64,000 nucleotides of DNA from Nocardioides sp. QY071 (GTDB lineage: Bacteria > Actinomycetota > Actinomycetes > Propionibacteriales > Nocardioidaceae): contig NZ_CP124681.1 of assembly GCF_029961765.1 (NCBI RefSeq), positions 4,402,001-4,466,000 of the forward strand, written 5' to 3'. The notes beneath the pieces were generated by a model. It searched no databases. It was given only the letters and a program-made list of their open reading frames with translations, and was not told the DNA's origin. The position numbers were made by a program, and so were the translations under genes. Below are positions 14,782 to 29,350 of the stretch, piece by piece (position 1 is the first letter of the stretch; the number at the start of each line of letters is the position of its first letter).

Positions 14782-15806
14782 GAGCCACCTCCGGGTCGGC
14801 AGTCGCGGACCACGTCGTTCTCGAGGACCGGCGCGCCCTGCGCGTCGAACAGGCCGCAGATGTAGGAGTCGAGCCAGCGGCCGTTGCCCATCGCGGCGGT
14901 GAGCATCCGGTAGTAGGGACCGAGCACCTCGAGCGCGTCGCCCAGGTGCTTCTGGTTGCGGCGCAGCATCGCGGCGACCTGGTCGAGCTTGTCGAGCGCC
15001 GGCTTGAGCTGCTTCTGGTTGTCACGTACGACGCCCGCCAGCTCCCGCCCCAGCGTCACCGTCGACTGCAGCAGCTGCCGGATCGACTCACGCCGGTTGG
15101 CCAGCTCGGTGAGCAGCAGGTTGCCGTCGTCGACGAGCTTGCCGATCTCGCCGTTGCGGGCGGCGAGGGTGTCGGTGACGCTCGAGGTCGAGCGGAACAG
15201 CCTGGCCAGCTCCTGGTCGCGGCTGGAGATCGTGTGCGAGAGGCGGGTCAGCCCGTCGACCATGCCGCGTACCGACTCCGGCGTGTTCGCGAAGATCTGG
15301 GACAGGGTGGTCATGCTCTGCTCGAGCTGGGTGGTGTCGATCTCGCCGATCGTCGAGGACAGGTCGGAGAAGGCCGCGTTGACGTCGTACGGCGTGGTCG
15401 TGTGCTCGAGCGGGATCGGCTCGTCGAGCGCCTCGGTGCCGAGGGGGTCGACGGAGAGGTACTTCTGGCCGAGCAGGGTCTTGATCTTCACCGCCGCGGT
15501 CGACTCGTCGCCGATCTCGACGCCCTTGGACCGGAAGCTGACCAGGACCTTGTCGCCGACCAGGTCGACGCCGGTCACCTTGCCGACCTTGACCCCGGCC
15601 ACCCGGACCTCGTCGCCGGCCCGCAGGCCGGCGGCCTCGGCGAGGAAGGCCTGGTGCTCGGTCCCGCCGCCGACGACCGGCAGGTCCTCGGCGTAGAAGG
15701 TGGCGAAGAAGGTGGCGACCAGGGCGGCGATGCCGATGACGGCGATCACCACCCGGTTCCGCTCGGCGAACGCGGTCGGGAACCGTCGCTGCGTGCGCGC
15801 GGCCAT
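14778..15806 (-). CDS. mceC: MceC-type MCE family protein
   Basis: 342 residues from ATG 15806, chosen over GTG 15815 because GGGAGGTG sits seven bases before it and the ATG overlaps the mceB stop (TGATG). A basic N-terminus leads into a membrane helix (NRVVIAVIGIAALVATFFATFY). The MCE domain (FLAEAAGLRAGDEVRVAGVK, VGKVTGVD) and helical tunnel region follow, ending with two Cys (SYICGLFD and VRDC) that could form a disulfide outside the membrane. The operon context defines its role. Confidence 0.93.
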   Translation of the reverse strand: MAARTQRRFPTAFAERNRVVIAVIGIAALVATFFATFYAEDLPVVGGGTEHQAFLAEAAGLRAGDEVRVAGVKVGKVTGVDLVGDKVLVSFRSKGVEIGDESTAAVKIKTLLGQKYLSVDPLGTEALDEPIPLEHTTTPYDVNAAFSDLSSTIGEIDTTQLEQSMTTLSQIFANTPESVRGMVDGLTRLSHTISSRDQELARLFRSTSSVTDTLAARNGEIGKLVDDGNLLLTELANRRESIRQLLQSTVTLGRELAGVVRDNQKQLKPALDKLDQVAAMLRRNQKHLGDALEVLGPYYRMLTAAMGNGRWLDSYICGLFDAQGAPVLENDVVRDCRPGGGS

Positions 15807-16843
15807 CAGCGGCACCTCCCCGCGACCGGCTGCACGCCGAGGTCGCCGTAGTAGCCCTCGGGCAGGGGGATCCGGCCCTTGATCGAGCAGATGTAGAAGT
15901 TGACCCAGGAGCCGTAGCTGGCGATCTTCGCGAGCCGCTGGACCTTCGTCGGCAGCGTCGCGAGCGCCTTGTCGATCACGTCCTCGTTGTTGGCGAGCAC
16001 CCCCGACAGGTCGCCGAGCGCCTTGATGGAGCGCTTGAGCGGGGCCCGTCCCTCCTGGAGCAGGTCGGCCACGCTCTCGGACAGGTCGCCCATCCCGTCG
16101 ATGGTCGAGCCGATCGTCTTGCGGTCCGCGGCCAGGCCGCTGACCAGCTGCTGGAGGGTGACCAGCGTGGTGTCGAGCTGTCCGGAGCGCTCCTCGACGA
16201 CCCCGAGGACCGAGGACAGGTTGGTGATCAGCTGGCCGATCACCTGGTCGCGGTCCGCGAGCGTCGAGGTGAGGCTGGCGGTGCTCTTCAGCAGGCCCTC
16301 GACCGTCGGCCCCTCGCCCTGGAAGACGGCGATCACCTGGGCGCTGAGGTTGTTGACGTCGTCGGGGTCGAGCAGCCGGAACAGGGGCTGGAAGCCGTTG
16401 AACAGCACGGTGAGGTCGAGCGCCGGCTGCGTCGCGTCGAGCCCGAACACGTGGCCGGGCGCGAGCCGCTTGCCGTTGACGTCGCCCGGTTCGAGGGCGA
16501 CGTAGCGCTGACCGACGAGGTTGCGGAAGCGCAGCATGGCGCGGGCGCCGGCGCCGAGCGGAGCGTTGTCGGCGACCGTGAAGCGCACCCGGGCGACCCG
16601 GTCGCCGCTGACCTCGACGCTCGTGACGGTGCCGACCTTGACGCCGGCCATCCGCACGTCGTCGCCCTTGTTGAGGCTGGTGGCGTCGCTGAACATCGCG
16701 ACGTACTCGTTGGACGGACCGGCCGCACTGTTGCGGATGGTGCCGGCCAGTGCCAGCGTCGCGAGGACCGTGACCACGGCGAACACGAGGGACTTGGTCA
16801 GTGTCGGGATCAACCCGCTGCGGGGACCGCTCCTCCGGGTCAT
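15806..16843 (-). CDS. mceB: MceB-type MCE family protein
   Basis: 345 residues from ATG 16843, which overlaps the mceA stop as ATGA. A membrane helix (SLVFAVVTVLATLALAGTI) is followed by the MCE domain (YVAMFSDATSLNKGDDVRMA, GVKVGTVTSV) and a helical domain. The C-terminus carries FYICSIKGRIPLPEGYYGD and a final Cys-Arg; the paired cysteines resemble those at the end of mceC. This is the second MCE subunit and is typical in length. Confidence 0.93.
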   Translation of the reverse strand: MTRRSGPRSGLIPTLTKSLVFAVVTVLATLALAGTIRNSAAGPSNEYVAMFSDATSLNKGDDVRMAGVKVGTVTSVEVSGDRVARVRFTVADNAPLGAGARAMLRFRNLVGQRYVALEPGDVNGKRLAPGHVFGLDATQPALDLTVLFNGFQPLFRLLDPDDVNNLSAQVIAVFQGEGPTVEGLLKSTASLTSTLADRDQVIGQLITNLSSVLGVVEERSGQLDTTLVTLQQLVSGLAADRKTIGSTIDGMGDLSESVADLLQEGRAPLKRSIKALGDLSGVLANNEDVIDKALATLPTKVQRLAKIASYGSWVNFYICSIKGRIPLPEGYYGDLGVQPVAGRCR

Positions 16844-18141
16844 CGGACCTCCACCTCCGCGCCGCGCAGCAGCGGCCCGACCAGCAGGCTGCTCCAGGTC
16901 GGGTAGTCGGCCGGGCTGACGCCCGCCTCCGGGGCCATCAGCTCGGCGATCAGCCGGTTCTCGGCGGGCGAGTTCGCCTCGCCCAGCCCGGCGGCCTCGG
17001 CGAACACCTTCTGCACGCGGTCGCTCGGCGGCGGCAGGATCTGCGCGGGTGCGCCGTCCGTGCCGCGCGAGGCGACGGGCTTCACGCTGCCGTCCTGGTA
17101 GGGACAGCGTGGTGCGCCCTTCGCGAGGTACGTCGGGTCGTCCTTGCCGAGCACGTAGCGCCCCCGGTCGGGCGTCACGTTGAGCACGACGTGGATGCCC
17201 GGCTCGTCGGTGCCCTTGCCGAGGGTCTTGTCCATCACCGGGATGAAGGCACGCAGCGACTTGAACAGGCACGGGAACTGCACGGCGTACGGCGCCATCG
17301 CCTCCAGGGCCTTCCGGCTCTCCTTCGACAGCGTGATGATCGAGCCGGAGTTGGCCACCATCCAGCCGTTGGTGTCGTCGGCCGCGACGATCACCGAGGC
17401 GAACAGCTTGGTCATCGAGGCCCGCTCCTCGACGAGGGTGCGCGAGGTGGTCGTCATCGAGTCGAGTGCGTCGACCAGGTCGGGGGCCGCGTCCGCGTAG
17501 GTCTCGGCGACCCGGCCGAACGCGGCGAGGTCGTCGGCCAGCTGCGGGGTGAGCGGGTTGAGCTTCTCGAGGTACTTGCCCCACGCGACGACGGTCTCGC
17601 CGATCGTGCCGCCCTGGCCCCGCAGCATCGCCGCGAGCTCGCCGAGGGTCGCGGACAGCTTGTCGGGCTGGATGGCCTGGAGGACGGGCAGCAGCTCGTC
17701 GAAGAGCTCCTCGACCTCGACCGCGGCGCTGGACGAGTCCTGCTCGATGGTGTCGCCCGCCTCGAGGGTGGCGCCGCCCTGCCCGGGCCGCACCAGGGCG
17801 ACGTACCGCTCACCGAAGAGGGTCTTGGGCAGCAACCGTGCCGTGGTGCCGACCGGCAGGTCGCCGAGGACGTCGGGCTCGAGGGCGAGGGTCAGGGTCG
17901 CGCCGCCGTCGCGCGGCTCGATGGAGGTGACCTTGCCGACCGGTACGCCGTTGAGCTTCACGTCCGATCCCTTCTGCAGCGCGCTGCCGACGGTGCGGGT
18001 GGTCAGGGTGATCTCGCTGCGCTCGACGAACACCTGGTTGTAGGCCAGCCAGGTGCCGGCGGCGACCGCGAGCACCACCACGCCGTACCCGACGCCGAGG
18101 AGCAGGTCGCGGATCCGCCCGGCGCTCATCACCGCGCTCAT
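16840..18141 (-). CDS. mceA: MceA-type MCE family protein
   Basis: 433 residues from ATG 18141, overlapping yrbEB as ATGA; an in-frame ATG four codons on is an alternative. The membrane helix (LLLGVGYGVVVLAVAAGTWLA) is followed by the MCE domain (ITLTTRTVGSALQKGSDVKL, GVPVGKVTSIE) and an extended helical region with a C-terminal domain rich in Pro and acidic residues. It is the first MCE subunit after the permeases, the usual position of MceA. The Mce complex takes up hydrophobic substrates such as fatty acids or sterols; the substrate cannot be told from sequence. Confidence 0.93.
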   Translation of the reverse strand: MSAVMSAGRIRDLLLGVGYGVVVLAVAAGTWLAYNQVFVERSEITLTTRTVGSALQKGSDVKLNGVPVGKVTSIEPRDGGATLTLALEPDVLGDLPVGTTARLLPKTLFGERYVALVRPGQGGATLEAGDTIEQDSSSAAVEVEELFDELLPVLQAIQPDKLSATLGELAAMLRGQGGTIGETVVAWGKYLEKLNPLTPQLADDLAAFGRVAETYADAAPDLVDALDSMTTTSRTLVEERASMTKLFASVIVAADDTNGWMVANSGSIITLSKESRKALEAMAPYAVQFPCLFKSLRAFIPVMDKTLGKGTDEPGIHVVLNVTPDRGRYVLGKDDPTYLAKGAPRCPYQDGSVKPVASRGTDGAPAQILPPPSDRVQKVFAEAAGLGEANSPAENRLIAELMAPEAGVSPADYPTWSSLLVGPLLRGAEVEVR

Positions 18142-18977
18142 CCAGCGATCCTCACCGTCGTGGTGGTCCCCCACATCGCCATCGACAGCGCGAGGTCCAG
18201 CACGGCGACCACCACGAGCGTGCGACGCACCGAGCGACCCACGGCCATCCCGACGCCGGCCGGGCCACCGCGGGCGAAGAAGCCGAGGCGGCAGTGGATC
18301 AGGATGACCAGCACGGCGAAGACCAGCACCTTGCCGAACGACAGCAGGATGTCGACGGGTGGCAAGAAGAGCTGGAAGTAGTGGTCGTAGGTGCCGGCCG
18401 ACTGCCCGCGGAACTGGACGGTGACCAGCCGGCTCCCGGCGTACGACGTCAGCAGTCCGATCACGTAGAGCGGGATGATCGCGACGAACCCGGCGACCAG
18501 CCGCGTGGACACCAGGAAGGGCACGGCGTCGAGCCCGATCACCTTGACGGCGTCGATCTCCTCGCTGATCCGCATCGCGCCGAGCTGCGCGGTGAAGCCC
18601 GCGCCGACCGTCGCCGACATGGCGAGGGCCGCGACGAGGGGCGCGATCTCGCGGGTGTTGAAGTAGGCGGAGATGAATCCGCTGAGCGCGGAGGTGCCGA
18701 TCTGGTCGAGGGCGGAGTAGCCCTGCAGCCCGACCACCGTGCCGACGAAGATGCTGATACCGGTCATCACGCCGACGGTGCCGCCGATGACGGCGAGCGC
18801 ACCGGTGCCGAAGCTGACTTCGGACAGCAGGCGCCAGATCTCCTTCGGATAGAGCCGGACCGCCTTCGGGATGCCGGCGATGGCACGGCCGTAGAAGCGG
18901 ATGTCGCGACCCGACTGGACGATCCGGTCGAGGCGGCGGTCCCACCAGGGACGTTTCGCGACGGCGACGGTGCTCAT
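18138..18977 (-). CDS. yrbEB: YrbE-type (MlaE family) ABC permease, second subunit
   Basis: 279 residues from ATG 18977, sharing one base with the stop of the fusion gene upstream (TGATG). The MlaE/YrbE permease fold shows four to six hydrophobic helices and the coupling-helix block EEIDAVKVIGLDAVPFLVS, the conserved EID-x-x-x-x-x-G motif that docks on the ATPase. With the permease half of the upstream fusion it should make the heterodimeric membrane core of the Mce importer. Confidence 0.94.
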   Translation of the reverse strand: MSTVAVAKRPWWDRRLDRIVQSGRDIRFYGRAIAGIPKAVRLYPKEIWRLLSEVSFGTGALAVIGGTVGVMTGISIFVGTVVGLQGYSALDQIGTSALSGFISAYFNTREIAPLVAALAMSATVGAGFTAQLGAMRISEEIDAVKVIGLDAVPFLVSTRLVAGFVAIIPLYVIGLLTSYAGSRLVTVQFRGQSAGTYDHYFQLFLPPVDILLSFGKVLVFAVLVILIHCRLGFFARGGPAGVGMAVGRSVRRTLVVVAVLDLALSMAMWGTTTTVRIAG

Positions 18978-20752
18978 CAGGCTCCCTTCCCGGGCACCAG
19001 CTCGAGGTAGAGCGTGGTGACGACGAAGTTGACGAAGAACAGCAGCAGGAAAGTGACGACCACCGACTGGTTGACCGACTCCCCCACGCCCTTCGGGCCG
19101 GGGCGGGTGTTGAGTCCGCGGTAGGCGGCGACCACACCGGCGAGGAAGCCGAAGATGACGGCCTTGATCTCGCCGACGACCAGGTCGGGGATCTGCGCGA
19201 GGGCGGTGAAGCTGGCGAGGTAGGCACCCGGCGTACCACCCTGGACCACGACGTTGAAGAAGTAGCCGCCGAGGACGCCGACGACCGAGACCAGGCCGTT
19301 GAGGAGGACGGCGGCGATGACACAGGCCAGGACCCGGGGTACGACGAGCTGCTGGACCGGGTCGACGCCGATCACCCGCATCGCGTCGATCTCGTCGCGG
19401 ATGGTCCGCGAGCCGAGGTCCGCACAGATGGCGGCACCTCCGGCTCCGGCGATCACCAGCGTGGTCACGATCGGCGCCGCCTGCTGCACGACCGCGAGCA
19501 CGGAGGCCGCTCCGGTGAAGGACTGCGCGCCGACCTGGACGGTCAGGGTGCCGAGCTGGAGCGCGATCACCGCACCGAACGGGATCGCGATCAGCATCGC
19601 GGGGATCCACGAGACGCTGGTGACGAACCAGAACTGGTCGAGCAGAGCGCGCGCCGAGAAGGGCCGGCGGAAGGTGGACCGGACCGTGTCGAGGCCGAGC
19701 GCGAAGAACGCGCCGGTCTGGTCGAGGGCCCGGGTCACCGGGTCCGGACGGACGACGGCAGGGGGTCGGTCTGCCTCCTCGTCGTCGGCGACGTACAGGC
19801 TCGCGTCGCCGGTCGCGACCCGGCGGGCGTGTCGCTCCGTCGCGGGCCGAGGCCGGCCGCTGGCGGGCAGCAGCTGGCGCGGCAGCACCTCGATCGCGCG
19901 GGCGCCGGCACGCACCATCGTGGGCGCGCCGGCCGGGCCGTCGACCGGGTAGCCGTAGTCGTCGAGCAGGGGCGCGTTGCTGGAGTGGTCGACCTCCTCG
20001 CTCATCCCGATCGGGCCGACCGGGTCGCCGGCCATGAACTGCGACACGACAGGGTGGTCTGTGAGCAGGAACTGCTCGCGCGGCCCGTACATCACCAGCT
20101 GGCGGCGGTAGAGCATGCCGAGGTTGTCGGGCAGGGTGCGCGCGAGCTCGATGTTGTGGGTGACCACGAGCATCGTGGCGTCGGTCTGGGCGTTGACGTC
20201 GAGCAGCAGCTGGGCGAGGTTCGCCGTACGGACCGGGTCGAGGCCGGAGTCGGGCTCGTCGCACAGGATGATCTCGGGCTCGGTCACCAGCGAGCGGGCC
20301 AGGCCGGCGCGCTTGCGCATGCCGCCGGAGATCTCGCCGGGCAGCTTGTGCTCCTGGCCGAGCAGGCCCACCATGTCGAGCTTCGTCATGGCGATCTCGC
20401 GCACCTGCGTCTCGTTCATGCGGGTGTGGGCGCGCAGCGGGAAGGCGACGTTGTCGTAGACGCTCATCGAGCCGAACAGCGCGCCGTCCTGGAACAGCAC
20501 GCCGAACCTCTTGCGCAGCTCGAGGCGGTGCGACTCCTTGGCGGTGACCATGTCGACGCCGTTGACCAGGCAGCGCCCGTCCTCGGGCCGCAACAGGCCC
20601 ATCAGCGACTTGAGGAACACCGACTTGCCGGTGCCCGAGGGCCCCAGCAGCGCGGTGATCTCACCCGGCGGGAGGGTCAGGGTGACGTCGCTCCAGATGT
20701 TCTGGGAACCGAAGCTCTTGGTGAGTCCGGTGACCTCAACGGTGCCGCCCAT
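18977..20752 (-). CDS. ABC ATPase fused to YrbE-type permease (Mce importer core)
   Basis: 591 residues in one uninterrupted frame from ATG 20752. Residues 1-245 are a complete MlaF/MceG-like ATPase: Walker A GPSGTGKS (37-44), signature ISGGM (141-145), Walker B IILCDEP (161-167), and the H-loop His in VVTHN. Residues ~250-335 are an acidic, Pro-rich linker like the C-terminal extension of mycobacterial MceG. Residues ~340-591 are a full YrbE permease, with the EIDAMRVIGVDP coupling motif at 454-465. In mycobacteria the ATPase is a separate gene elsewhere; here ATPase and YrbEA are one polypeptide. There is no stop or plausible start near the junction, though internal initiation at M250 or M279 cannot be excluded. 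Confidence 0.9.
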   Translation of the reverse strand: MGGTVEVTGLTKSFGSQNIWSDVTLTLPPGEITALLGPSGTGKSVFLKSLMGLLRPEDGRCLVNGVDMVTAKESHRLELRKRFGVLFQDGALFGSMSVYDNVAFPLRAHTRMNETQVREIAMTKLDMVGLLGQEHKLPGEISGGMRKRAGLARSLVTEPEIILCDEPDSGLDPVRTANLAQLLLDVNAQTDATMLVVTHNIELARTLPDNLGMLYRRQLVMYGPREQFLLTDHPVVSQFMAGDPVGPIGMSEEVDHSSNAPLLDDYGYPVDGPAGAPTMVRAGARAIEVLPRQLLPASGRPRPATERHARRVATGDASLYVADDEEADRPPAVVRPDPVTRALDQTGAFFALGLDTVRSTFRRPFSARALLDQFWFVTSVSWIPAMLIAIPFGAVIALQLGTLTVQVGAQSFTGAASVLAVVQQAAPIVTTLVIAGAGGAAICADLGSRTIRDEIDAMRVIGVDPVQQLVVPRVLACVIAAVLLNGLVSVVGVLGGYFFNVVVQGGTPGAYLASFTALAQIPDLVVGEIKAVIFGFLAGVVAAYRGLNTRPGPKGVGESVNQSVVVTFLLLFFVNFVVTTLYLELVPGKGA

Positions 20753-20791
20753 GGCGGGTCTCCTGCCTGTCGGTGCGCTGCTCGCGGGGAG

Positions 20792-21832
20792 TCATGGCTG
20801 CTCGGGGGTGGTCGTGGTGGTGGGGTCGGTGGATGGGCTCGTCGGCTCGGTTGTCGACTCGGTTGTCGGCTCGGACGTGGGCTCGGACGTCGGCTCGCCG
20901 GGCCCGCCGGTCGGCTCGCTGGTCGGGTCGTCCGACGGCTCTCCGCTCGGCGTCGGTGTCTTGCTGGTCGGCGAGGCAGCCGTCGTGGCGAGCGCGTCGC
21001 GCGGTTCGGCGAGGAGCCGGGCCTGGGTGCAGGCGCAGTCCTCGGGCAGCAGCGGCAGCGGCGACGGGAGCGGTACGACGGGCACCTGGGCGGACTGCCG
21101 CGCGTAGCGGTGCGCGAGGCGCAGCACGGTGCGCACGAAGCCCGGTGCCGGGTGGTAGGCCGCCAGCGAGGCCCGCAGCCCGCGCCGGGTGCTCAGGTCC
21201 TGTCCGGCGCAGAGCCGGACCGCGGCCGCCAGCGCCGCGTCGTCGATGTCGCGCGGGTCGCGGACCCCGTCGGCGTCGGCGTCCACGGCGACGCTGGTCC
21301 AGGTGGTGGGCAGCAGCCGGAACGGGCCGACCGGGGCGTCCCACACAGGATCGCCGTCCAGGACGCCGCCGTCGGTGTCGGTGACCTCGCCGCGCCGGCC
21401 GGTGCCGTCGAACGGCCTGCCCACGGCGGGTCCGCGGCCGTGGTCGGACTCGACCCGGCCGATCGCCACCAGCACCGTCCAGTCGAGCCCACAGGCGCCG
21501 GCGGCGTCGAGCACCGCCGCCGCCCGCTGGTAGGCGGCGAGCGCCTCGGGCGGGGTGGAGCCGAGCGACCCCGGGAAGTCGCTCGGTTCCCCGACCCGCG
21601 GGCGTCGTACCGCGGCCGTGGGGTCCACCGCGACGGCCGGCGCCACGTCGGTGAGGGGTGCAGCCGCCTTCGTCGTGGCGGCCGGCTCGCGGGGAGCGGG
21701 CGGCGCGGGATCCGCGGCCATGCGCAGCACCTGCGCCGTACCGCCGGCGATGCCGACGGCCGCCAGCAGCACTCCGAGCACCGCGATGGCGATCCTGCGC
21801 CGCCGCGAGCCACGCCGGGACCCTGCGTCCAC
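20792..21832 (-). CDS. Lytic-transglycosylase-like secreted/anchored protein heading the mce operon
   Basis: 346 residues from GTG 21832 with GGGGAG just upstream. A basic N-terminus and membrane helix (RIAIAVLGVLLAAVGIAGG) are followed by a transglycosylase-like domain: the likely catalytic Glu is E128 in AIGRVESDHGR, and GPFRLLPTTW and later AAYHPAPGFV match the MltB-like fold. The last ~70 residues are a Thr/Pro/Ser/Glu tail (PTSEPTSEPTTESTTEPTSP) that could span the wall. It ends 39 bp before the ATPase-permease fusion and is probably co-transcribed with it. A wall-opening enzyme at the head of a lipid importer operon is unusual; glycan cleavage is predicted, not shown. Confidence 0.78.
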   Translation of the reverse strand: MDAGSRRGSRRRRIAIAVLGVLLAAVGIAGGTAQVLRMAADPAPPAPREPAATTKAAAPLTDVAPAVAVDPTAAVRRPRVGEPSDFPGSLGSTPPEALAAYQRAAAVLDAAGACGLDWTVLVAIGRVESDHGRGPAVGRPFDGTGRRGEVTDTDGGVLDGDPVWDAPVGPFRLLPTTWTSVAVDADADGVRDPRDIDDAALAAAVRLCAGQDLSTRRGLRASLAAYHPAPGFVRTVLRLAHRYARQSAQVPVVPLPSPLPLLPEDCACTQARLLAEPRDALATTAASPTSKTPTPSGEPSDDPTSEPTGGPGEPTSEPTSEPTTESTTEPTSPSTDPTTTTTPEQP

Positions 21833-21947
21833 TGCGCTCCCCTTCCCGAGTGAGTGTCATCACATGGTGGAACCGGTCGCCAGTCAAGGACCGACGCGAC
21901 GAGAACGCCAGAGCAACGGCGCACCATCTGCGTATGCGGGCCGGATG

Positions 21948-21965
21948 TTGTCATGCGGGTGACAA
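21948..21965. promoter_or_regulatory. 18-bp palindrome, copy 1 (mce side)
   Basis: TTGTCATGCGGGTGACAA: six-base arms TTGTCA and TGACAA with a 6-bp centre. It lies 116 bp upstream of the GTG that heads the mce operon. It is 105 bp (about ten helical turns) from copy 2, the right half GGTGACAA being identical in all four copies. Distance upstream suits an activator site. Confidence 0.72.
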
Positions 21966-22052
21966 GATCCGGCCCCGATCGGCGCCCGCACGGTGCCGAC
22001 CGCGGGCCCGGTCCCGGCCTCCCGACGGCCACAGCTGTCGGACTCGGAGGCG

Positions 22053-22070
22053 TTGTCATCCGGGTGACAA
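22053..22070. promoter_or_regulatory. 18-bp palindrome, copy 2 (mce side)
   Basis: TTGTCATCCGGGTGACAA: the same arms and spacing as copy 1, differing in one central base. It lies between copy 1 and the hairpin that ends the upstream gene, so it belongs to the mce-side promoter region rather than to the gene at 22183. Confidence 0.7.
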
Positions 22071-22094
22071 CGCCGCGTCTCGGCACGGGGTACG

Positions 22095-22139
22095 ACGACA
22101 GCGGCCGGCGTGACCCGAGGTCACGCCGGCCGCTGTTGT
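22095..22139 (-). terminator. Strong hairpin, likely terminator of the secreted-protein gene
   Basis: A perfect 18-bp stem (22098-22115 with 22119-22136, arm ACAGCGGCCGGCGTGACC) and a 3-base loop, extendable to 21 bp with one G-T pair. It lies 44 bp beyond the stop of the minus-strand gene at 22183. There is no T-run, which is common for actinobacterial terminators. Confidence 0.75.
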
Positions 22140-22182
22140 GGGGGGCTTGTCGGCCCAGTGCTCCTGCTCCGCCCAGCCTCGC

Positions 22183-23265
22183 TCAGTCCGCAGGGACGGG
22201 GATGGCGGGCGGCGGCGGCGGATCGAGCGGGCAGACGACCTTCCCGCTCTGCACCCCGCAGGCCGTCGGATCGTTGCGATCACCGGAATACGAAGCCGCC
22301 GGGTCCTGGCGGACGGAGAGCTCGTTGCCAGGTCCCGCGATGGCGGCGGTGAGCAGGCGACTGACGTCGTCGCCGCTGGCCGAGCGGCAGCCCGTGAAGG
22401 CCGGAATCGTCAGGTCGCTGGATGCGGGGTGCAAAAGATTGCCACCAGGCACAGCGGCCCGGGACGTGTCCTTGCGCTGGAAGAGACGACCTCCGAGAAC
22501 CGGGTACCAAGGGTCTGGGGACGTCGAGCTGCCTGCATCCGCTGCCCACAGGTTGATGTCCAGAGGGGCGACGGTGCGACAGCGGTTGCCCACGTCGACC
22601 GGCACGCCGTCGATGGCGATCTCGGACACGGTCAGACTCAACCGGCCGCGCACATAGGCCGGATTCTCGGGATTCTTGCGACGCCATTCGGGGTCGCAGG
22701 GGATCCGCGCGGCATCGCCGATCGGCCAGATGTCGGCACGGAACGGCTCCAGCTCGCCGTCGATCACCTGGCTCAGCTGCAACGTGGCGCTGACGGGGAT
22801 CGATCCGAAGGCCACCGTCCTGACCGTGGTCGGCGGCAGAGCACCCACCGGCCGTCCGCCGGGAGAGGGTCCGATGGCGTAGATGTCGTTCACGAGCGCG
22901 AGGGCCGTCACCACACATCCAGGAACGTCCGACTGCCACTCAGCAGGAACCGGGCTTGGCCTCGGCCGCGGCAGTCCGGCGTTGGGGTCCCGATAGGGAG
23001 GCTTGATCATCAGCCAGCCGAGCAGGTTGGGCAGCCTGATGATGAGTTTGCTGCGCTCGATGAGCGTGTTCTGGCTGGCACCGACCGGTCCGCTTCCTCC
23101 CGCACCGTCCTGAGGACTCCCGACGGGCGGCAGCTCGTGACCTGAACCCACCCCGCCGTCGTCCGAGTAGGCGCCGGGGGTGCCGACGAAGGCCATGAGA
23201 CAAATCCACGCGACCAGGATCGGGATCCGACGCGCCTTCCAGTGGTGCGAAATCGAGTGGCTCAT
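22183..23265 (-). CDS. Secreted protein of unknown function, paralogue of next gene
   Basis: 360 residues from ATG 23265, with AGGAG ten bases upstream. The N-terminal signal segment (RRIPILVAWICLMAFVGTPGAYS) is followed by an acidic/Gly-rich linker and a beta-rich domain. The blocks NRCRTVAPLDINL and PAFTGCRSA match DNCRTAAPVDITV and GDFTGCSAF of the gene at 23379, so the two are divergent paralogues with two conserved Cys. Additional C-terminal Cys (TACGVQSGKVVCPL) and a final Pro run (DPPPPPAIP) are private to this copy. It lies between the mce operon and the PucR regulators. I do not recognise the family. Confidence 0.75.
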   Translation of the reverse strand: MSHSISHHWKARRIPILVAWICLMAFVGTPGAYSDDGGVGSGHELPPVGSPQDGAGGSGPVGASQNTLIERSKLIIRLPNLLGWLMIKPPYRDPNAGLPRPRPSPVPAEWQSDVPGCVVTALALVNDIYAIGPSPGGRPVGALPPTTVRTVAFGSIPVSATLQLSQVIDGELEPFRADIWPIGDAARIPCDPEWRRKNPENPAYVRGRLSLTVSEIAIDGVPVDVGNRCRTVAPLDINLWAADAGSSTSPDPWYPVLGGRLFQRKDTSRAAVPGGNLLHPASSDLTIPAFTGCRSASGDDVSRLLTAAIAGPGNELSVRQDPAASYSGDRNDPTACGVQSGKVVCPLDPPPPPAIPVPAD

Positions 23266-23314
23266 CGGAGATCGGCTCCTCGCTCGAGGGACGTAGGGGT
23301 CAATGTCAGCGCCT

Positions 23315-23351
23315 GCGCGGCTCGCCCACAGGTCGTGTGGGCAAGCCGCGC
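23315..23351 (-). terminator. Hairpin downstream of secreted-protein gene
   Basis: Arms GCGCGGCT-c-GCCCAC (23315-23329) and GTGGGC-a-AGCCGCGC (23337-23351) pair with one mismatch; loop of seven. It begins 28 bp after the stop of the minus-strand gene at 23379 and probably ends that transcript before the next gene. Confidence 0.65.
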
Positions 23352-23378
23352 GAGTACGGAACATCCAGTCACGCCAAC

Positions 23379-24065
23379 CTAGGCCGGGTAGCGACCGTTG
23401 GACAGCTGCAGTGCGATGGTGTTGTTGCTGCCGGGCACCATCGCGTTGATGGCGAGTGAGCCGACACCCGGGATGAAGAAGGCGCTGCACCCAGTGAAGT
23501 CGCCGATCGTGTAGGTGCCGGCCACCGGGCCGCCGCTGAACACGTTGAACGTCTGGCCGTCGGGCGTCTTGACCGTGATGTCGACGGGAGCCGCGGTCCG
23601 GCAGTTGTCCCCGACGAACATTGGCGTCCAGATGCCGAAGATCAGCGCCTTCACGTTGCTCAGCCGGATCGTGTAGTGCACGTTCGCGGTGACCGCGTTG
23701 CTCCGCGGCACCGTGCCGGGGCGCAGGGTCCCGGTGATCGGTCCGACCTGGACCAACGAGACGGTCGCACGGATCGGGATGAAGCCGAGGGCGTTGAACT
23801 GGACCTGCTGGCTCGGGATCGGCAACGTGCCGTCGATGATGTTCGAGGTCGGGATGTCCAGGGTCTCGGTGAGCACGGTCGGGCCGATCGGCAGCGAGGA
23901 GCTGATACTGCCGATCGTGGAGGTACCCTGCGCGTCGTAGAGGGTGGTCAGGGTGGTGCCGGTGTCCTCGGCGTGAGCGGTCGGCGCAGGGGCGGCGAGC
24001 ATGCTCAGACCGAGCAGCACGGTCAGTGCGGAGGCCGCGCGGGCCAAGGAGGTGTGCTTTCTCAT
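23379..24065 (-). CDS. Secreted beta-rich protein of unknown function
   Basis: 228 residues from ATG 24065. A classical signal peptide (basic MRKHTSLARA, hydrophobic ALTVLLGLSMLAAP, cleavage near AHA-ED) is followed by a Thr/Ser/Ile-rich sequence with regular hydrophobic alternation, suggesting a beta-sandwich. Two cysteines (DNCRT and TGCSA) may form a disulfide. It is shorter than its paralogue at 22183 and lacks the linker and the Cys-rich end. There is no enzyme motif. The company of the mce operon and PucR regulators suggests an envelope or extracellular lipid-handling role, which is a guess from context. Confidence 0.75.
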   Translation of the reverse strand: MRKHTSLARAASALTVLLGLSMLAAPAPTAHAEDTGTTLTTLYDAQGTSTIGSISSSLPIGPTVLTETLDIPTSNIIDGTLPIPSQQVQFNALGFIPIRATVSLVQVGPITGTLRPGTVPRSNAVTANVHYTIRLSNVKALIFGIWTPMFVGDNCRTAAPVDITVKTPDGQTFNVFSGGPVAGTYTIGDFTGCSAFFIPGVGSLAINAMVPGSNNTIALQLSNGRYPA

Positions 24066-24106
24066 CTCTTGCTCCGTGTTCTCATCGGTCCGGTGAGCAG
24101 CGAGGA

Positions 24107-24125
24107 CCGGCCCGGCGTGGGCCGG
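24107..24125 (-). terminator. Short GC hairpin between secreted-protein genes
   Basis: CCGGCCC-ggcgt-GGGCCGG, seven perfect pairs, 22 bp past the stop of the gene at 24148. Likely a weak intrinsic terminator or processing hairpin. Confidence 0.5.
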
Positions 24126-24147
24126 CCCTCGCGCACTCGAGGAGGGG

Positions 24148-24855
24148 TCAGCTGATGCTGGGGGCCGGAGTGAGCTGGACGATGCCCGAGCCCGTGGCCG
24201 GGTCGTCCTCGTAGATGCCGACCACGTTGCACAGCGGGCTGGGGGCGCTCGGGTTGGAGCTCGTGACGTTCTTGAGCACCAGTCCCTCGTAGCTCGCGTC
24301 GATCGTCAACCGGCCGGTGGTGCCGTCGTAGGCGCCCTTGAGGGTGCCGATCGCGTCGGCCTGGCAGGTCTCGCCACCCGCCTCACCGTAGAGGTGGACC
24401 TGGACGCCGGACAGGTAGCCCGTGCCACCGTTGCCGGACTTGGACGACAGCCCCAGCTTCCAGGTGCCGGACGGGGTCAGCGTGACCGGTCCGACCACCG
24501 CGTTGGTGCAGCCGGACAGATCGCCGGACACCGGGGTGACCTGTCCCGCGGCATCGGTGACGGTCACCGGATCGGGTGAGGTGGGGGTGAAGGCGTGCCC
24601 GCCCGGGTTGACCGAGCCGTCGGCGCTGAGCGTGGTACAGGTCATGCTGGGGTTGCCCGGCGTGCCGAACGGCCCGAGGTAGGTGTCCTCGAAGACCAGG
24701 TTGCCCACGTTGGTCGCAGTGACGGCGTTGGTGCCGCCGCCGGAGGTGACGGTGTAGTCGACGAGGGCGGAGGCCGGGCCGACCGGGATGGCCAGGACGG
24801 CGGCGGCGCTGGCGGCCACGACGGCGAGGCCGTTGAGGGAACTCTTGAGTCGCAT
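24148..24855 (-). CDS. Secreted protein of unknown function, third of cluster
   Basis: 235 residues from ATG 24855, chosen because GGAGA lies eight bases upstream; the in-frame ATG at 24870 has no such site. The signal peptide (MRLKSSLNGLAVVAASAAAV, cleavage after ASA) leads to a Gly/Thr/Ser-rich mature domain with four Cys (MTCTTL, LSGCTN, ETCQAD, PLCNVV) that could make two disulfides. Overall it looks like an extracellular beta-sandwich. It has no clear alignment with the other two secreted proteins except the SGC/TGC-type Cys context. Upstream, 24887-24920 carries three imperfect TGTTGCGGG repeats of unknown meaning. Confidence 0.72.
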   Translation of the reverse strand: MRLKSSLNGLAVVAASAAAVLAIPVGPASALVDYTVTSGGGTNAVTATNVGNLVFEDTYLGPFGTPGNPSMTCTTLSADGSVNPGGHAFTPTSPDPVTVTDAAGQVTPVSGDLSGCTNAVVGPVTLTPSGTWKLGLSSKSGNGGTGYLSGVQVHLYGEAGGETCQADAIGTLKGAYDGTTGRLTIDASYEGLVLKNVTSSNPSAPSPLCNVVGIYEDDPATGSGIVQLTPAPSIS

Positions 24856-25009
24856 GGGGATGATCTCCATTTCTCTGTTTCCTGGGTGTTGCGGGGGGGT
24901 GTTGCGGGGTGTTGCGGGGGTTGGATCAGCACTCCGGGGAGTGCGCACTGGAACCGTGCGAGCCTGCGGCTGTCACGGTCAACGGGTCGGGCGCATCGGG
25001 GCCCGAAGT

Positions 25010-25025
25010 CCGGACACACGTCCGG
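25010..25025 (-). terminator. Small hairpin downstream of the first PucR-type gene
   Basis: CCGGAC-acac-GTCCGG, six pairs, about 35 bp beyond the stop at 25059. Rest of 24856-25058 (203 bp) holds the presumed promoter of the secreted-protein gene and the TGTTGCGGG repeats; no gene is visible. Confidence 0.4.
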
Positions 25026-25058
25026 TGAACCAGGGGATCGAGGCCGTGTCCTAGGCCG

Positions 25059-26180
25059 TCAGCGACGCTCCGCACGAGCGGCCACCTCCTCGCGCCACCG
25101 CGGCACGGCGGCGTGCAGAGCGAGCACGATCGCCGCATGGGCGACCGGCTCCTCGATCGCCGCTCCCAGCAGTTCGCGGCCGATGCGGAGCCGGTCGTGG
25201 GCGGTCTGGCGCGCGATGTGGTGCACGGACGCCACGTCGGCGAGAGAACCGCGGGTCTCCAGCCAGGTCAGCAGCACCTCCGCGACCTCGACGCGGCGCA
25301 CGGGCTTGAGCGCCTGCAGCTGGGCGAGGTACTTGTCGACCAGGAGCTCGGTGAGCGCGGGGCGCCCGGCGACGACCAGCTCCGCGGCGACGTCGGCGCA
25401 CGACGTGACGGCACGGTCGCTGAGGATCACCCCGGCCCGGATCGCGGCGGCCGCCTGGCGCGCGAGCTGGATCGACTCGGCGAGGTCGGCTGCCGGCCGG
25501 GCGGGGCCGGTGACCACCCGCTCCCCCGGCTCGAGCCCGGGGAGCCGGCCGTCCGGGACGAGCAGGGCGCCGCCGGCCGGGTCGACGAGGACGTCGGGAT
25601 CCTCGCCGGGCGGGAGTGCCGCCGTACCGGACACCCAGACGACGGGAAGATGCGGCGTCGCCGGGTCGACGCCGGCCAGGACGAGCAGCTCCGCGGGCAC
25701 CGCGGCGGAGGCGAAGACCGCGCGCGCGACCATGTCGCGCCGTGCGTCCGGGGCCAGCGCCATCATCGTGCGGACCTGCCGGTGCCCGGCCAGCGCGGCC
25801 CGGTGCAGCTGGTCGACGAAGCGCTCCAGTCCGCCGCGCAGCGCCTCACGCTCCTCGCGCGGATGGACCCGGGCGATCACCTGGTCGGCGCGCCGGGTCC
25901 GGTCCTCGACGACCTGGCGCAGGTCCCGGCTGAGCCGCTCCGCGCTGTGGCCGCGGACCGCGGCTCGGCGGCCGATCTGCATGAGGGTCGGCCCGACCTG
26001 CCTGACGGCGTCCTCGAACCGCCCCTCAGCACCGACGAACGCCCGGGTCGCGATCACCACCGAGTGGGCGACCGCAGGAGGGAGTGGACGATCCGGAGTG
26101 TCCAGGTCGTGGCACAGCACGGCCACCAGGGCGTCGCCATCGGCGACACCCCCCCACTGGCGGATCGCGCTCCCGATCAC
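25059..26180 (-). CDS. PucR/CdaR-type transcriptional regulator (first)
   Basis: 373 residues. GTG 26180 is chosen because GCAGGAGG stands eight bases before it; GTG 26231 (17 codons longer) has no such site. The protein has a long helical N-terminal sensor half, a degenerate middle domain, and a C-terminal PucR-type helix-turn-helix (LTWLETRGSLADVASVHHIA then RQTAHDRLRIGRELLG). PucR proteins usually activate nearby operons in response to small ligands. It is divergent from the second PucR-type gene, with two 18-bp palindromes in between, the same sites found upstream of the mce operon. Confidence 0.85.
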   Translation of the reverse strand: MIGSAIRQWGGVADGDALVAVLCHDLDTPDRPLPPAVAHSVVIATRAFVGAEGRFEDAVRQVGPTLMQIGRRAAVRGHSAERLSRDLRQVVEDRTRRADQVIARVHPREEREALRGGLERFVDQLHRAALAGHRQVRTMMALAPDARRDMVARAVFASAAVPAELLVLAGVDPATPHLPVVWVSGTAALPPGEDPDVLVDPAGGALLVPDGRLPGLEPGERVVTGPARPAADLAESIQLARQAAAAIRAGVILSDRAVTSCADVAAELVVAGRPALTELLVDKYLAQLQALKPVRRVEVAEVLLTWLETRGSLADVASVHHIARQTAHDRLRIGRELLGAAIEEPVAHAAIVLALHAAVPRWREEVAARAERR

Positions 26181-26288
26181 GTCCGCTCCCTCCTGCGGCG
26201 TCCGGGGTGGGCCGCGGTACGAGCCAGCCACAGCCCGCTCGACGGCGACAAGGGCCGATCGGTCCTCCTGCCTCGCCGGGCCCGTTCC

Positions 26289-26306
26289 TTGTCAGGCGGG
26301 TGACAA
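26289..26306. promoter_or_regulatory. 18-bp palindrome, copy 3 (PucR intergenic)
   Basis: TTGTCAGGCGGGTGACAA, 109 bp upstream of the first PucR-type gene. It is 95 bp (about nine helical turns) from copy 4. Position between the divergent regulators suggests autoregulation. Confidence 0.72.
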
Positions 26307-26383
26307 CGGTCACAGCGGGACCGGCCCGGTCCCGCCACTCCTCCCCCAGCGGTACGACGCCCCCGGCGAGAGCAGCCCGAGAC

Positions 26384-26401
26384 TTGTCACGCAGGTGACA
26401 A
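26384..26401. promoter_or_regulatory. 18-bp palindrome, copy 4 (PucR intergenic)
   Basis: TTGTCACGCAGGTGACAA, 73 bp upstream of the small leader frame that precedes the second PucR-type gene. It has the longest perfect dyad of the four except at the centre. Confidence 0.72.
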
Positions 26402-26473
26402 ATTCCCCCGTGCGCCGGCGGGCGGAGGTATGTTCCACGACACACCGGTGGGGCCGGTGGGGAGGGACACGAC

Positions 26474-26524
26474 ATGCACGCGAACAACTCGGGTCGCGCG
26501 TCGGCGACGACCGCGGGCTGGTGA
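26474..26524 (+). CDS. Possible 16-residue leader peptide coupled to the PucR-type gene
   Basis: ATG 26474 has an excellent ribosome site (GGGGAGGG, seven bases upstream) and encodes MHANNSGRASATTAGW followed by TGA, which overlaps the GTG start of the regulator at 26521 (GTGA). The regulator itself has no ribosome site, so its translation probably depends on this mini-frame. The peptide has no recognised motif; regulation through it is inference. Confidence 0.55.
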   Translation: MHANNSGRASATTAGW

Positions 26525-27801
26525 GCCGCAAGGAGCGGGAGTCCGGCGATGAGGCAGGGCGGGAGTCGATGAGGGCGGCGCCCCCGCGGGCCGCGCTGCC
26601 CGGCTCGGCCCAGTGGATGATCAGCAGCCTGGAGGGGCGGGTCCGCGAGGTCGCCGAGCAGGTGACCGAGCAGGTGCGCTCCGGCGTACCCGGCCTCGCG
26701 GACCCCGCCGACGCGCGCCTGCTCGACCTCGTCTTCACCGCGGTGCACAACGCGATGCGGGTCTTCGTCGACGAGTCGCTCGGCCGCGAGGTGTCCTACC
26801 TGCCGGTCGAGGACATGTTCCGCAAGGTCGGCTACCGGGTCGCCCTGCGCGGGCGCGACCTCGACACGATCGACCAGGGCATGGTCATCGCGGTCGGGGT
26901 GATCTCCGACGAGCTGCGGGTCAGTGCCGCCGAGAACGAGCTGTCGGCCGGCGCCCTCAACGCCATCAACGACGCGATCACCACGTTCGTCGGCCAGCTC
27001 ACCGAGCAGATCGCGGTGGGCTACCGGGCCGGCGCGCAGGCCCGCAGCACCGACAGCGGGCTGGCCCGCGCCCGGCTGCTGACCGCGCTGCTCGCCGGCA
27101 CCGACGAGGACGAGGTGGAGACCCAGGCCGCGATCGCCGGCTGGGAGCTGCCCGACCAGGTCACCGTGATCGCCGTCGAGGCCGGCGACCAGGCCGTGCG
27201 CGGCGATGCCCTCGGCCCGAAGGCGCTCACCCGCACCGGGCGCACCCCCCAGCCCGTGGTGTGCGCGACCGCCGACGCCGAGGAGGTGGTCGCCGCGATC
27301 CGCCGCAGTGCACCCCAGGCGCGGGCGTCGGTGTGCTGGCCGGTCCCCCGCGGCGACGCGAGCGCCGCGTGGACCTGGGCGACCCGCGCCCTGTCCCTGG
27401 TCGAGGCCCGGGTGATCCCGGCGCGGCCGGTCATCGAGTGCGTCCGGTTCCGCACCGAGATCTGGCTGCACGCCGAGCCGGTGCTGCGTCGCCAGCTCGC
27501 CCAGGAGCTGCTGCAGCCGCTGTTCAACGAGACCGAGAACTCCCGCGAGATCCTCTCCGAGACCCTGCTCGTCTGGCTCGAGACCCGCGACAGCGCGCCC
27601 GCGATCGCGGCCCGCCTGGGCGTCCACCCGCAGACGGTGCGCTACCGCTGGAAGCGGATCAACGAGCTGTTCGGCGACTCGCTGCACGACCCCGACTACG
27701 TCGTCCAGCTGACCTTGCTGCTCAAGGCCAGCGTCCCGCTGTGGGTCGCCGGCGACCAGAGCGACTTCCGGCGGTTCCGGGAGCAGGAGGAGACCGGATG
27801 A
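26521..27801 (+). CDS. PucR/CdaR-type transcriptional regulator (second)
   Basis: 426 residues from GTG 26521, coupled to the leader frame; ATG 26569 is a fallback start. The N-terminal ~160 residues form a helical sensor domain, the middle is a degenerate GGDEF-like region (ARLLTALLAGTDEDEVETQA onward), and the C-terminus is the PucR helix-turn-helix (LLVWLETRDSAPAIAARLGV, HPQTVRYRWKRINELFG). The intact HTH and length are typical. Its stop overlaps the next gene (ATGA). The shared palindromes suggest that one or both PucR proteins control the mce operon and themselves. Confidence 0.9.
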   Translation: MSRKERESGDEAGRESMRAAPPRAALPGSAQWMISSLEGRVREVAEQVTEQVRSGVPGLADPADARLLDLVFTAVHNAMRVFVDESLGREVSYLPVEDMFRKVGYRVALRGRDLDTIDQGMVIAVGVISDELRVSAAENELSAGALNAINDAITTFVGQLTEQIAVGYRAGAQARSTDSGLARARLLTALLAGTDEDEVETQAAIAGWELPDQVTVIAVEAGDQAVRGDALGPKALTRTGRTPQPVVCATADAEEVVAAIRRSAPQARASVCWPVPRGDASAAWTWATRALSLVEARVIPARPVIECVRFRTEIWLHAEPVLRRQLAQELLQPLFNETENSREILSETLLVWLETRDSAPAIAARLGVHPQTVRYRWKRINELFGDSLHDPDYVVQLTLLLKASVPLWVAGDQSDFRRFREQEETG

Positions 27802-28796
27802 CCCCAGCCCTGGTCGCCTGCGTGCTCCTCGCAGCGCTGCCGGCGGTGTTCGCCTACGCCGTACCCGTGGCCCGGTGGGTGGCCCGCGCGCGCGGTCGTG
27901 CGGCAGGCGTCTTCCTCGACGACCGCACGGCCCTGGCCGTCGGTCCGCGCGTCGACACGGTGCTCCTCGACCGCTGGGGCACGGTCACGACCGGCCAGCT
28001 GCGGGTCGTGGCGGTCGACCCCGTCGAGCCCGACCACGAGCGCAACCTGCGCTGGTTCGCCGGCGCCCTCGGCCACGCCGCCGAGGACCCGGTGAGCCAG
28101 GCCATCGCCCGGCTCTCCTCGCGCGGCAAGCTCAGCCAGGTCGAGCAGCACGGCAGCCGCGGCATCAGCGGCTCCGTCGACCGGCACCCGGTCCGCCTGG
28201 GCCGCCCCGACTGGTTGGGCATGGCGGCCCGCGACGACGCCGGGGTCACCCTCGGCGTGCAGGTCGACTCCCGCCCGATCGGCTACATCACCGTCGCCGA
28301 CGACGTGCGCCCCCACGCCCACGAGGACGTCGCCCGGCTGCGCGCCGACGGCGTCGAGCCGGTCCTGGTCTCCGAGGACTCCGAGCGCAACACCCGCGGC
28401 CTGGCCGAGGCCTGCGGCATCGCGCAGTGGTACGCCGACCGCCCGGCCGACACCCGCGGCGCGCTGGTCGACGAGCGGCGCCGGACCGGGCACGTCGTCG
28501 CGGTCGCCGGACCGTCGGCGGACCGGGAGGCCGACCTGCTGCTGACCGACGCCGCCGACTCCACCCGCGGGATCCGGCTCGCCGACCTCGACGTCGGGCG
28601 GGTCGCGACCGCGCTCGCCCTCACGCGCAGCGCCGCGCGCGCGGCGAGCCGTTCACGTCGTACCGGCCTCGGGGTGGGGCTCCTCGGCGTGGTGCTGGCG
28701 GCGACCGGCGTGCTGGCGGTGCCGCTGGCGATCGGCTGGGCGGTCCTCGGCTGCGGGCTCGTCACCGCGACGGCGGTGGGTCGCGCCGCGACCTGA
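27798..28796 (+). CDS. Degenerate, N-terminally truncated P-type ATPase-like membrane protein
   Basis: 332 residues from ATG 27798, ATGA-coupled to the PucR gene. It aligns by eye with the second half of a P1B metal ATPase, from the sixth membrane helix (where CPC would be, it has AVPVA) through the P and N domains to two C-terminal helices (~291-325). Every catalytic motif is changed: DKTGT is DRWGT (58-62), the HP motif is DP (97-98), TGD is SED (192-194), and GDGxND is GPSADREAD (238-246). The transport half is absent. It therefore cannot be a normal pump; a retained regulatory or scaffold role is inferred from the intact, coupled reading frame. Confidence 0.7.
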   Translation: MTPALVACVLLAALPAVFAYAVPVARWVARARGRAAGVFLDDRTALAVGPRVDTVLLDRWGTVTTGQLRVVAVDPVEPDHERNLRWFAGALGHAAEDPVSQAIARLSSRGKLSQVEQHGSRGISGSVDRHPVRLGRPDWLGMAARDDAGVTLGVQVDSRPIGYITVADDVRPHAHEDVARLRADGVEPVLVSEDSERNTRGLAEACGIAQWYADRPADTRGALVDERRRTGHVVAVAGPSADREADLLLTDAADSTRGIRLADLDVGRVATALALTRSAARAASRSRRTGLGVGLLGVVLAATGVLAVPLAIGWAVLGCGLVTATAVGRAAT

Positions 28797-28801
28797 CGCA
28801 A

Positions 28802-29350
28802 TCAGGCGTCCTGCAGCAGGCCCTCGCGCTGGGCGGCGGCCACGACCCGCCGTACGTTCTCGACCGAGCCGCAGCCCTCGTCGATCAGCGCGTTGCGGCG
28901 CCGGGCCCACTTGCTGCCGAGGTCCCAGCGGACCTTGGTCGAGACCTCGGTTCGCGCCGGCTCGAGGATGCTCAGCTCCTCCTCGGCGATGTGGTGGGCG
29001 ACGAGGTTGCTCAGCTCCTCGACGGCGTCGGAGAAGGCCTGGGTGTCGGTGCCCCTGAGCTCGAGCAGCACCAAGAGGGCGTCGTTGCCCTCTGCGTGCT
29101 CCTCGCGGCCGTGCTCGACGTCGTGCACGTCGACGTCGGAGGCCGCCTTGCGCAGCACCGGGTAGACGATCTCCTCCTCCGCCTCCCCGTGCGCGACGAG
29201 GACGTCGGCGAAGGCGCGCCGGACGGCGTCGCGGTCGACGGTGCCGAGGCGCATCTGCGAGAGCAGCTGCTCGAAGCGTCGGTGGTCGTCGCTGATCAGG
29301 TCGATGACGTCGCCCGACGCGGGGCGGCCCAGGTCGATTCCGGAGGTCAT
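28802..29350 (-). CDS. Hemerythrin-like (HHE) domain protein
   Basis: 182 residues from ATG 29350, overlapping the stop of the flavoprotein upstream (ATGA). The HHE four-helix domain has the expected iron ligands spread over DDHRRFE, HGEAEEEIVYP, HGREEHAEGND and HHIAEEE. Such proteins bind a non-haem di-iron centre that can sense or handle O2, NO or iron. Coupling with the thioredoxin-reductase-like gene suggests a redox pair. A basic C-terminal extension follows the domain. Confidence 0.9.
   Translation of the reverse strand: MTSGIDLGRPASGDVIDLISDDHRRFEQLLSQMRLGTVDRDAVRRAFADVLVAHGEAEEEIVYPVLRKAASDVDVHDVEHGREEHAEGNDALLVLLELRGTDTQAFSDAVEELSNLVAHHIAEEELSILEPARTEVSTKVRWDLGSKWARRRNALIDEGCGSVENVRRVVAAAQREGLLQDA

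Follow-up and report, generated by a model that had tools for sequence, protein, structure and literature searches.

A 64,000-nucleotide stretch of the genome of the soil bacterium Nocardioides sp. QY071 (contig NZ_CP124681.1, positions 4,402,001 to 4,466,000; the whole stretch is called the window below) contains four copies of the palindrome TTGTCA-N6-TGACAA. Two of them precede an mce operon, which encodes an Mce-type lipid importer, and two lie between divergent genes for the PucR-type regulators PucR1 and PucR2. Judged from the sequence, a MabR-like PucR protein, most likely PucR2, would use the four palindromes as operators of a small, dedicated regulon and would activate the mce operon; we assign this reading a probability of roughly 0.7. 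The comparison of genomes gives good support to the regulon itself, a dedicated circuit of control that related genera share.

Four palindromic operators

The palindromes (unstranded) were located by motif search at positions 21948–21965 (O1), 22053–22070 (O2), 26289–26306 (O3) and 26384–26401 (O4). An earlier note made from the sequence alone had reported these four copies, and both 6-bp arms proved to be perfect in each. Its further measurements hold as well: the right-half sequence GGTGACAA is common to all four 18-mers, the spacings within the pairs are 105 bp (10 helical turns, O1 to O2) and 95 bp (O3 to O4), and the two left-hand operators lie 116 and 221 bp from the GTG at 21832. The centres of the half-sites (TTGTCA arms) are 12 bp apart, about one helical turn. 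O1 is proximal and O2 distal to the promoter of the mce operon, while O3 is on the PucR1 side and O4 on the PucR2 side of the divergent promoter region.

The note had placed O1 and O2 ahead of the mce operon head. They are, with the refinement that the first gene of the operon encodes a lytic-transglycosylase-like exported protein (LTG; 20792–21832, minus strand; SLT_2 and MltB_2 matches below the curated cut-offs). It is followed leftward, in one operon, by the genes for a fused ATPase/permease, a second permease and the Mce proteins. The divergent PucR-type genes around O3 and O4 were also described correctly, save that the right-hand gene starts near 26569: PucR1 occupies 25059–26231 on the minus strand and reads leftward, and PucR2 occupies 26569–27801 on the plus strand and reads rightward. 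Three genes for exported proteins lie between the two operator pairs.

When up to 2 mismatches were allowed in the window, these four sites and no others were found; none of 100 shuffled sequences gave four sites, with a mean of 0.27. In the whole genome of 5,697,957 bases the four window sites are the sole matches at 0 or 1 mismatch, and the pattern read backwards has zero matches at up to 1 mismatch. A global regulator was considered and is unlikely, with only four sites per 5.7 Mb at this threshold.

Conservation with PucR2 and the fused mce operon

The motif was sought in a genus sample of 118 genomes (labelled G) and a family sample of 197 genomes; individual loci carry L labels. The note had made its proposal depend on recurrence of the motif near mce or PucR genes in related species. 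The motif is indeed conserved there: in different genera it precedes orthologous mce operons, PucR-type genes of various kinds and nearby genes for secreted proteins. In the genus sample the exact motif occurs in 18 genomes, and the backward-pattern control in 3. A PucR2 orthologue is present in 21 genomes, namely all 18 with the motif and three with a fused mce operon (G088, G098 and G099), in which the mce sites carry one or two mismatches. None of the 97 genomes without PucR2 has the exact motif (Fisher p 1.7e-18, shared ancestry ignored). The fused ATPase-permease without an internal stop was found in 19/118 genomes; 30/118 hold a form of lower similarity whose match is interrupted by a stop, and these were taken as unfused. 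The fused mce operon accompanies the motif in 16 of the 18 motif genomes, G034 and G095 being without it. The family sample gives a similar picture: PucR2 is present in 38 of the 197 genomes, 36 of which also have the fused mce operon; no genome without PucR2 has that operon. Of the 31 genomes with the exact motif, 28 contain PucR2.

Short palindromes do arise by chance, and stray exact copies occur in 3 of the 159 PucR2-negative genomes of the family sample, as does the backward control in 3/197. However, given the shuffle control, the exclusiveness within the genome and the conservation in place across genera, chance or non-regulatory repeats are a next to negligible explanation of the four sites; a chance or simple repeat was ruled out by the shuffles and the genome-wide search.

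The named relatives belong to Nocardioides, Pimelobacter, Aeromicrobium, Mumia and other genera, and their 77 loci were picked through the fused protein, irrespective of the motif. No more than 400 bp upstream of the start of the ATPase-permease gene, a site with 0 or 1 mismatch is present in 28 of the 33 fused named loci versus 0 of the 44 unfused ones. In the five exceptions another gene stands ahead of the ATPase-permease gene, which is transglycosylase-like in L058, L059, L060 and L089 and secA-like in L077. Each of these loci has at least one site with at most 1 mismatch further upstream, in L060 with a gene of another PucR kind, PucR3, intervening. One-mismatch sites at the place equivalent to O1, ahead of the LTG gene, are found in L058, L059 and L051. 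Loci L031–L057 had been fetched for holding the motif and L058–L134 by the fused protein only. In the upstream-site tally over 92 loci, 7 of the 48 fused loci are duplicates between the sets, and 2 that run off the locus end were counted as fused.

The nearest named locus to the window is that of Nocardioides sp. SLBN-35. Five related loci, including a near-copy of the window, have an O3/O4 spacing of 94–95 bp, and by eye the DNA between the two sites diverges in the more distant of the five. The spacing equivalent to O1/O2 is 84 bp, or 8 turns, in both Pimelobacter simplex loci.

Genes beside the sites

The genes adjoining the sites were counted in non-duplicate loci (7 duplicates left out, the near-copy L089 kept, PucR genes sorted by score). 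An mce, LTG, secA/secB or PucR-type gene begins within 500 bp downstream of 70 of the 83 exact sites and 32 of the 40 one-mismatch sites, a tally that comes partly from motif-selected loci. Counted by gene, a site within 500 bp was found for mce (34/43, counted only in loci having a site), PucR1 (5/5), PucR1-like (9/9), PucR3 (15/22), secA (18/34), secB (7/33) and LTG (7/13).

The binder of the sites might also be a regulator from a different family, encoded elsewhere in the genome. Among the 22 commonest clusters of open reading frames (ORFs) around the operon, named by eye, PucR is the most widespread regulator cluster (27/33 loci), and no other recognised regulator occurs in more than 4 of the 33 loci, the number reached by a TetR-like ORF. 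Since the genome also holds only four sites at up to 1 mismatch and the presence of the motif tracks PucR2, an unlinked regulator is very improbable.

PucR2 as the probable binder

Both regulators are of the PucR type by the HTH_30 family (PF13556, cut-off 27), which PucR2 matches at 60.2 bits and PucR1 at 31.4 bits. No match to PF07905, the N-terminal domain of PucR proper, was listed for either protein up to E 10, in a scan whose filters drop most matches above about 0.1; the N-terminal part of PucR1 has no family assigned. The sequence match of PucR2 to GGDEF_2 stays below the cut-off (18.5 vs 24.5 bits). In the structure model of PucR2 (mean pLDDT 90.8) the C-terminal part matches two solved structures of the PucR type, 3onq (E 2.7e-5) and MabR, 9f80 (E 6.3e-5), in Foldseek with a probability of 1.00 each; closer alignment gives Z 13.1 and rmsd 9.8 over 220 residues for 9f80, and Z 12.8 and rmsd 10.7 over 217 for 3onq. 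By its model PucR2 has the MabR-type C-terminal fragment, a GGDEF-like domain followed by the helix-turn-helix (HTH). The N-terminal residues 12–157 are modelled as a helical domain that may be globin-like: they match the globin-like pXO2-61 chain 3pmc best (Z 13.9, rmsd 2.5 over 132), at a score near the level of unrelated helical models. No N-MabR chain was recognised among its best 50 structural matches, and its invariant or nearly invariant columns contain no histidine. The HTH of PucR2 is nearly invariant among 27 orthologues, in which whole-protein identity to the window protein falls to 39–44% in the more distant of those aligned.

It has to be considered that the main binder is PucR1 (elsewhere the PucR1-like protein or PucR3), acting alone or in a mixed oligomer with PucR2, and that PucR2 has another role. 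All 14 PucR1 and PucR1-like genes have a site with at most 1 mismatch within 500 bp upstream, and a PucR1 or PucR1-like gene is divergent from mce in a number of Aeromicrobium loci and in the two Mumia loci. However, a true PucR1 orthologue (at least 61% identity) is present in only 4/118 genomes, with a PucR1-like protein in 2 more (G088 and G098, E <= 1e-12), against 18 genomes with the motif; three further matches of the PucR1 search are PucR3 or PucR2 genes. PucR3 was not found in some motif genomes, for example G103, at E <= 1e-30, and the HTH of PucR1 departs from the common type. PucR1 is therefore hardly the universal binder, and we regard this alternative as unlikely, although PucR1 may take part in the clade of the window. 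PucR2, present in 18/18 motif genomes, is favoured over PucR1 and is probably the protein that binds the palindromes.

Operator geometry and the direction of control

A conserved element, GTGAC-N5-CCACAC-N-TANNNT, is found in the mce promoter downstream of the operator. Its spacing was taken from 41 loci; in 2 of them the analysed part contained no site, and the 30 with a clear element were counted. The start of the element follows that of the operator by 60–62 bp in 11 and by 71–73 bp in 19 of the 30, with none between. Eight loci have a weak element (score 8–9 of 14) at spacings of 61, 61, 61, 72, 77, 78, 85 and 98 bp, and L059 has an element of score 11 at 182 bp. The tree of the fused protein from 29 of the 30 loci (all but L054, which is truncated at the end of its locus) requires 5 changes of spacing class, at least 4 of them on well-supported branches; shifts of roughly one helical turn have thus occurred repeatedly. 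Measured from the operator end, the hexamer TANNNT is found at offsets 60–61 (11 matches) and 70–71 (18 matches) in 35 mce pairs.

A second hexamer, TTNACT, was counted in 97 site-gene pairs with one hand-chosen site per pair. Of its 20 occurrences 13 are at offset 60, whereas 2000 rotations put at most 4 at any one offset; the promoters concerned are those of LTG (4/6), secA (5/11) and PucR3 (4/13). In the window TTGACT (21882–21887, minus strand) begins 60 bp past the end of O1, in phase with the operator, and is -10-like by its offset. TATGTT (26429–26434, plus strand), the presumed -10 hexamer of PucR2, lies 27 bp past O4, an offset shared by the window, L046, L047 and L051. No sigma-70 consensus promoters were found in 20500–29000. 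If the hexamers are -10 elements, the operator centres would lie near -81.5, -92.5 and -48.5, positions familiar from activators. Operator-to-hexamer distances about one helical turn apart suggest a phase-dependent activator.

The regulator might instead act as a repressor that is released by a lipid ligand. Repression of mce3 by Mce3R (as reported in part of PMC2277422) is a precedent, and the position of O4 near the presumed PucR2 promoter would suit negative autoregulation. Against repression stands the distance of 60–71 bp between the mce operator and the downstream -10-like element, which is beyond simple occlusion, as well as the fact that in the 30 clear loci this distance varies only by about one whole turn. 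Furthermore, the PucR-type proteins named in the portion of PMC7652997 at hand are activators, save PucR, which does both. Repression is thus rather unlikely and activation the likely mode of control. Whether a PucR protein activates in a class-I-like manner could naturally be tested on the whole-turn steps between operator and promoter.

Directly ahead of TANNNT upstream of mce, in L031, L037, L061, L065 and other loci, the sequence GTGAC-N5-CCACAC forms a second conserved element, which looks CRP-like.

Points against the proposed regulon

Several observations weigh against PucR2 as the activator that acts through these operators. Co-occurrence alone cannot separate the regulator from the module, because PucR2 and the fused mce operon are co-inherited in 36/38 genomes. 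Among PucR2 genomes, 10 of 38 in the family sample and 3 of 21 in the genus sample are without the exact motif. The site in G034 and G095 adjoins none of the tested window proteins, so these two genomes are weak support at best; the PucR2 match in G034 is moreover partial. A site within 500 bp accompanies only 14 of 27 PucR2 genes, and in some relatives a PucR1-like or PucR3 gene adjoins the mce operator, so that more than one PucR protein may bind. With 2 mismatches the narrower pattern TTGTCANNNNGGTGACAA matches 9 further places in the genome versus 1 for the backward control, and weaker sites may thus exist elsewhere.

The promoter geometry has exceptions of its own. The spacings of 77, 78, 85, 98 and 182 bp, in L081, L051, the window, L072 and L059, do not fit, and the clade of the window, L072 and L081 lack an mce-type element at 61 or 72 bp. 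TTNACT at offset 60 was not seen in the secB, PucR1, PucR1-like or PucR2 pairs, and this hexamer, including TTGACT next to O1, could be a -35 rather than a -10 element. Finally, the own site of PucR from B. subtilis is not palindromic, according to the part of PMC7652997 used here.

Comparison with known systems

Dedicated transcriptional control of an Mce lipid importer is known from the mycobacterial and rhodococcal mce operons with Mce1R, Mce2R, Mce3R and KstR. These belong to other regulator families, GntR and TetR. To our knowledge, the substrates and the control of Mce importers outside mycobacteria are poorly understood. The tight regulon of four operators gives a direct handle on them, as it offers a single regulator and a single operator with a set promoter geometry for testing. 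In the open-access literature searched, no report of PucR control of an Mce importer was found; the class of regulator is known, its use for an Mce importer was not met with there.

PucR2 resembles MabR (PDB 9f80) in HTH_30 and the matching C-terminal part, and would resemble it in a globin-like N-terminal domain and in the control of lipid-envelope genes. MabR (Rv2242) of M. tuberculosis controls mycolic-acid genes, and its recognition helices are described, in the section of PMC11617747 consulted, as suited to a palindrome, the form of the site proposed for PucR2. The two differ in their targets, fas-II for MabR and the Mce importer here. Palindromic sites are common in the group: GabR, PutR and AdeR bind inverted repeats, as stated in excerpts from PMC7652997. 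GabR of Corynebacterium glutamicum, in the same source, is a PucR-type activator divergent from its target operon and with two upstream inverted-repeat sites. It differs in its 21-bp repeats at a GABA operon and in being described there with PF07905, a domain to which neither PucR1 nor PucR2 gave a listed match.

An mce operon of N. simplex (KR76_12195-12230) is assigned to KstR in the available portion of PMC7593942; it may be a different operon from the present one. The motifs given in that portion are those of KstR, KstR2, Lcin1 and Lcin2, and not TTGTCA-N6-TGACAA. Mce operons of Actinomycetales with an upstream Mkl ATPase share with the present operon an ATPase beside yrbE-mce (PMC1810536, in part). 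Here the ATPase is fused to the permease, whereas the part of PMC1810536 at hand mentions a DUF140-ATPase fusion only in Rhodopirellula.

Products of the regulon and proposed mechanism

The fused protein of 591 aa (18977–20752, minus strand) joins an MlaF-like ATPase to an MlaE/YrbE permease, as assigned by family matches. It is followed by the gene for the second YrbE permease (18138–18980, minus strand), which matches TIGR00056 only below the cut-off (125.2 vs 212.2 bits), and by the mce genes (11210–18078, minus strand, boundaries approximate). Two of these were tested against families, and the others were assigned by similarity to relatives. Pfam matches above the cut-off to MlaE, ABC_tran, MlaD and Mce4_CUP1, together with TIGR00996 at 191.2 bits (cut-off 140.5), place the operon among the Mce importers.

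The three exported proteins between the operator pairs are encoded on the minus strand by secA (22183–23373), secB (23379–24065) and secC (24148–24858). Being on the same strand behind PucR1, these genes may be read from the O3/O4 region, and we infer co-transcription with PucR1. The Pfam and NCBIfam scans gave no family match for secC and none above the cut-off for secA and secB, which are paralogues and form one protein family by sequence similarity. The secB model is mostly beta (pLDDT 84.7) and has no Foldseek match at E <= 0.001. In the closer alignment its top rows are mostly TULIP lipid-binding proteins, such as LBP (Z 7.1, rmsd 4.3 over 133), BPI (6.6) and CETP (6.0). Membership in this group is not claimed for secB, since all Z scores are below 8. 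Relatives of the sec family stand just upstream of unfused mce operons in Streptomyces and Actinokineospora loci (L122:9395-9850, L123:1289-1711), and a more distant member stands upstream of the mce operon in a second Actinokineospora (L114). We hypothesise from the model that secA and secB could serve as lipid carriers. These unannotated secreted proteins may be extracellular lipid carriers for Mce systems; no report linking a TULIP domain with Mce was found in the open-access literature searched.

P-type ATPases carry the motif DKTGT. The gene behind PucR2 (27798–28796, plus strand) encodes a P-type-ATPase-like protein that matches TIGR01525 below the cut-off (107.9 vs 346.25 bits). At the DKTGT position, the 30 such ORFs listed, duplicates included, have DRWGT in 18 cases, another variant in 4 and none by pattern in 8, and GDxxND has no match in any of the 30. 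The protein is probably a pseudo-enzyme.

We propose that a PucR-type homodimer, most likely of PucR2, would grip both TTGTCA half-sites. From O1 and O2, PucR2 would activate the LTG-mce lipid-import operon. From O3 and O4 it would control both the PucR2 gene, along with the ATPase-like gene that follows, and PucR1, along with the secreted-protein genes downstream of PucR1. Some globin-like sensors of the type of the PucR2 N-terminal domain bind fatty acids. The signal would probably be a lipid-like ligand taken up by this domain, and a lipid signal for PucR2 is put forward as a hypothesis. A closed lipid-acquisition circuit is a more tentative extension, and the odds are against it: PucR2 would sense lipid through the globin-like domain, possibly aided by the degenerate P-type-ATPase-like membrane protein, and would switch on the fused Mce importer together with secreted TULIP-like proteins that deliver lipid.

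Operator variants and flanks

Upstream of mce, seven Aeromicrobium loci (L065, L067, L068, L073, L075, L076 and L080) have the left half-site TTGTGA instead of TTGTCA. Three of the nine two-mismatch places in the genome of Nocardioides sp. QY071 (L007, L008 and L010) share the palindrome TGGTCA-N6-TGACCA, to which another regulator may bind. At some operators the palindrome continues into self-complementary flanks that are particular to the locus and run without a break for up to 12 bp (window 21938–21975, L060:7190, L093:1014, L053:10948 and L033:8255). A special DNA hairpin as the feature itself was considered and not adopted, the arms being long in only some of 79 sites. The self-complementarity of the operator flanks is 0.39, compared with 0.30 in re-paired flanks (standard deviation 0.014; maximum of 500 re-pairings 0.35). 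Between the genes for the exported proteins and O2, a 21-nt inverted repeat with a 3-nt loop occupies 22095–22139; it is perhaps a terminator without a T run.

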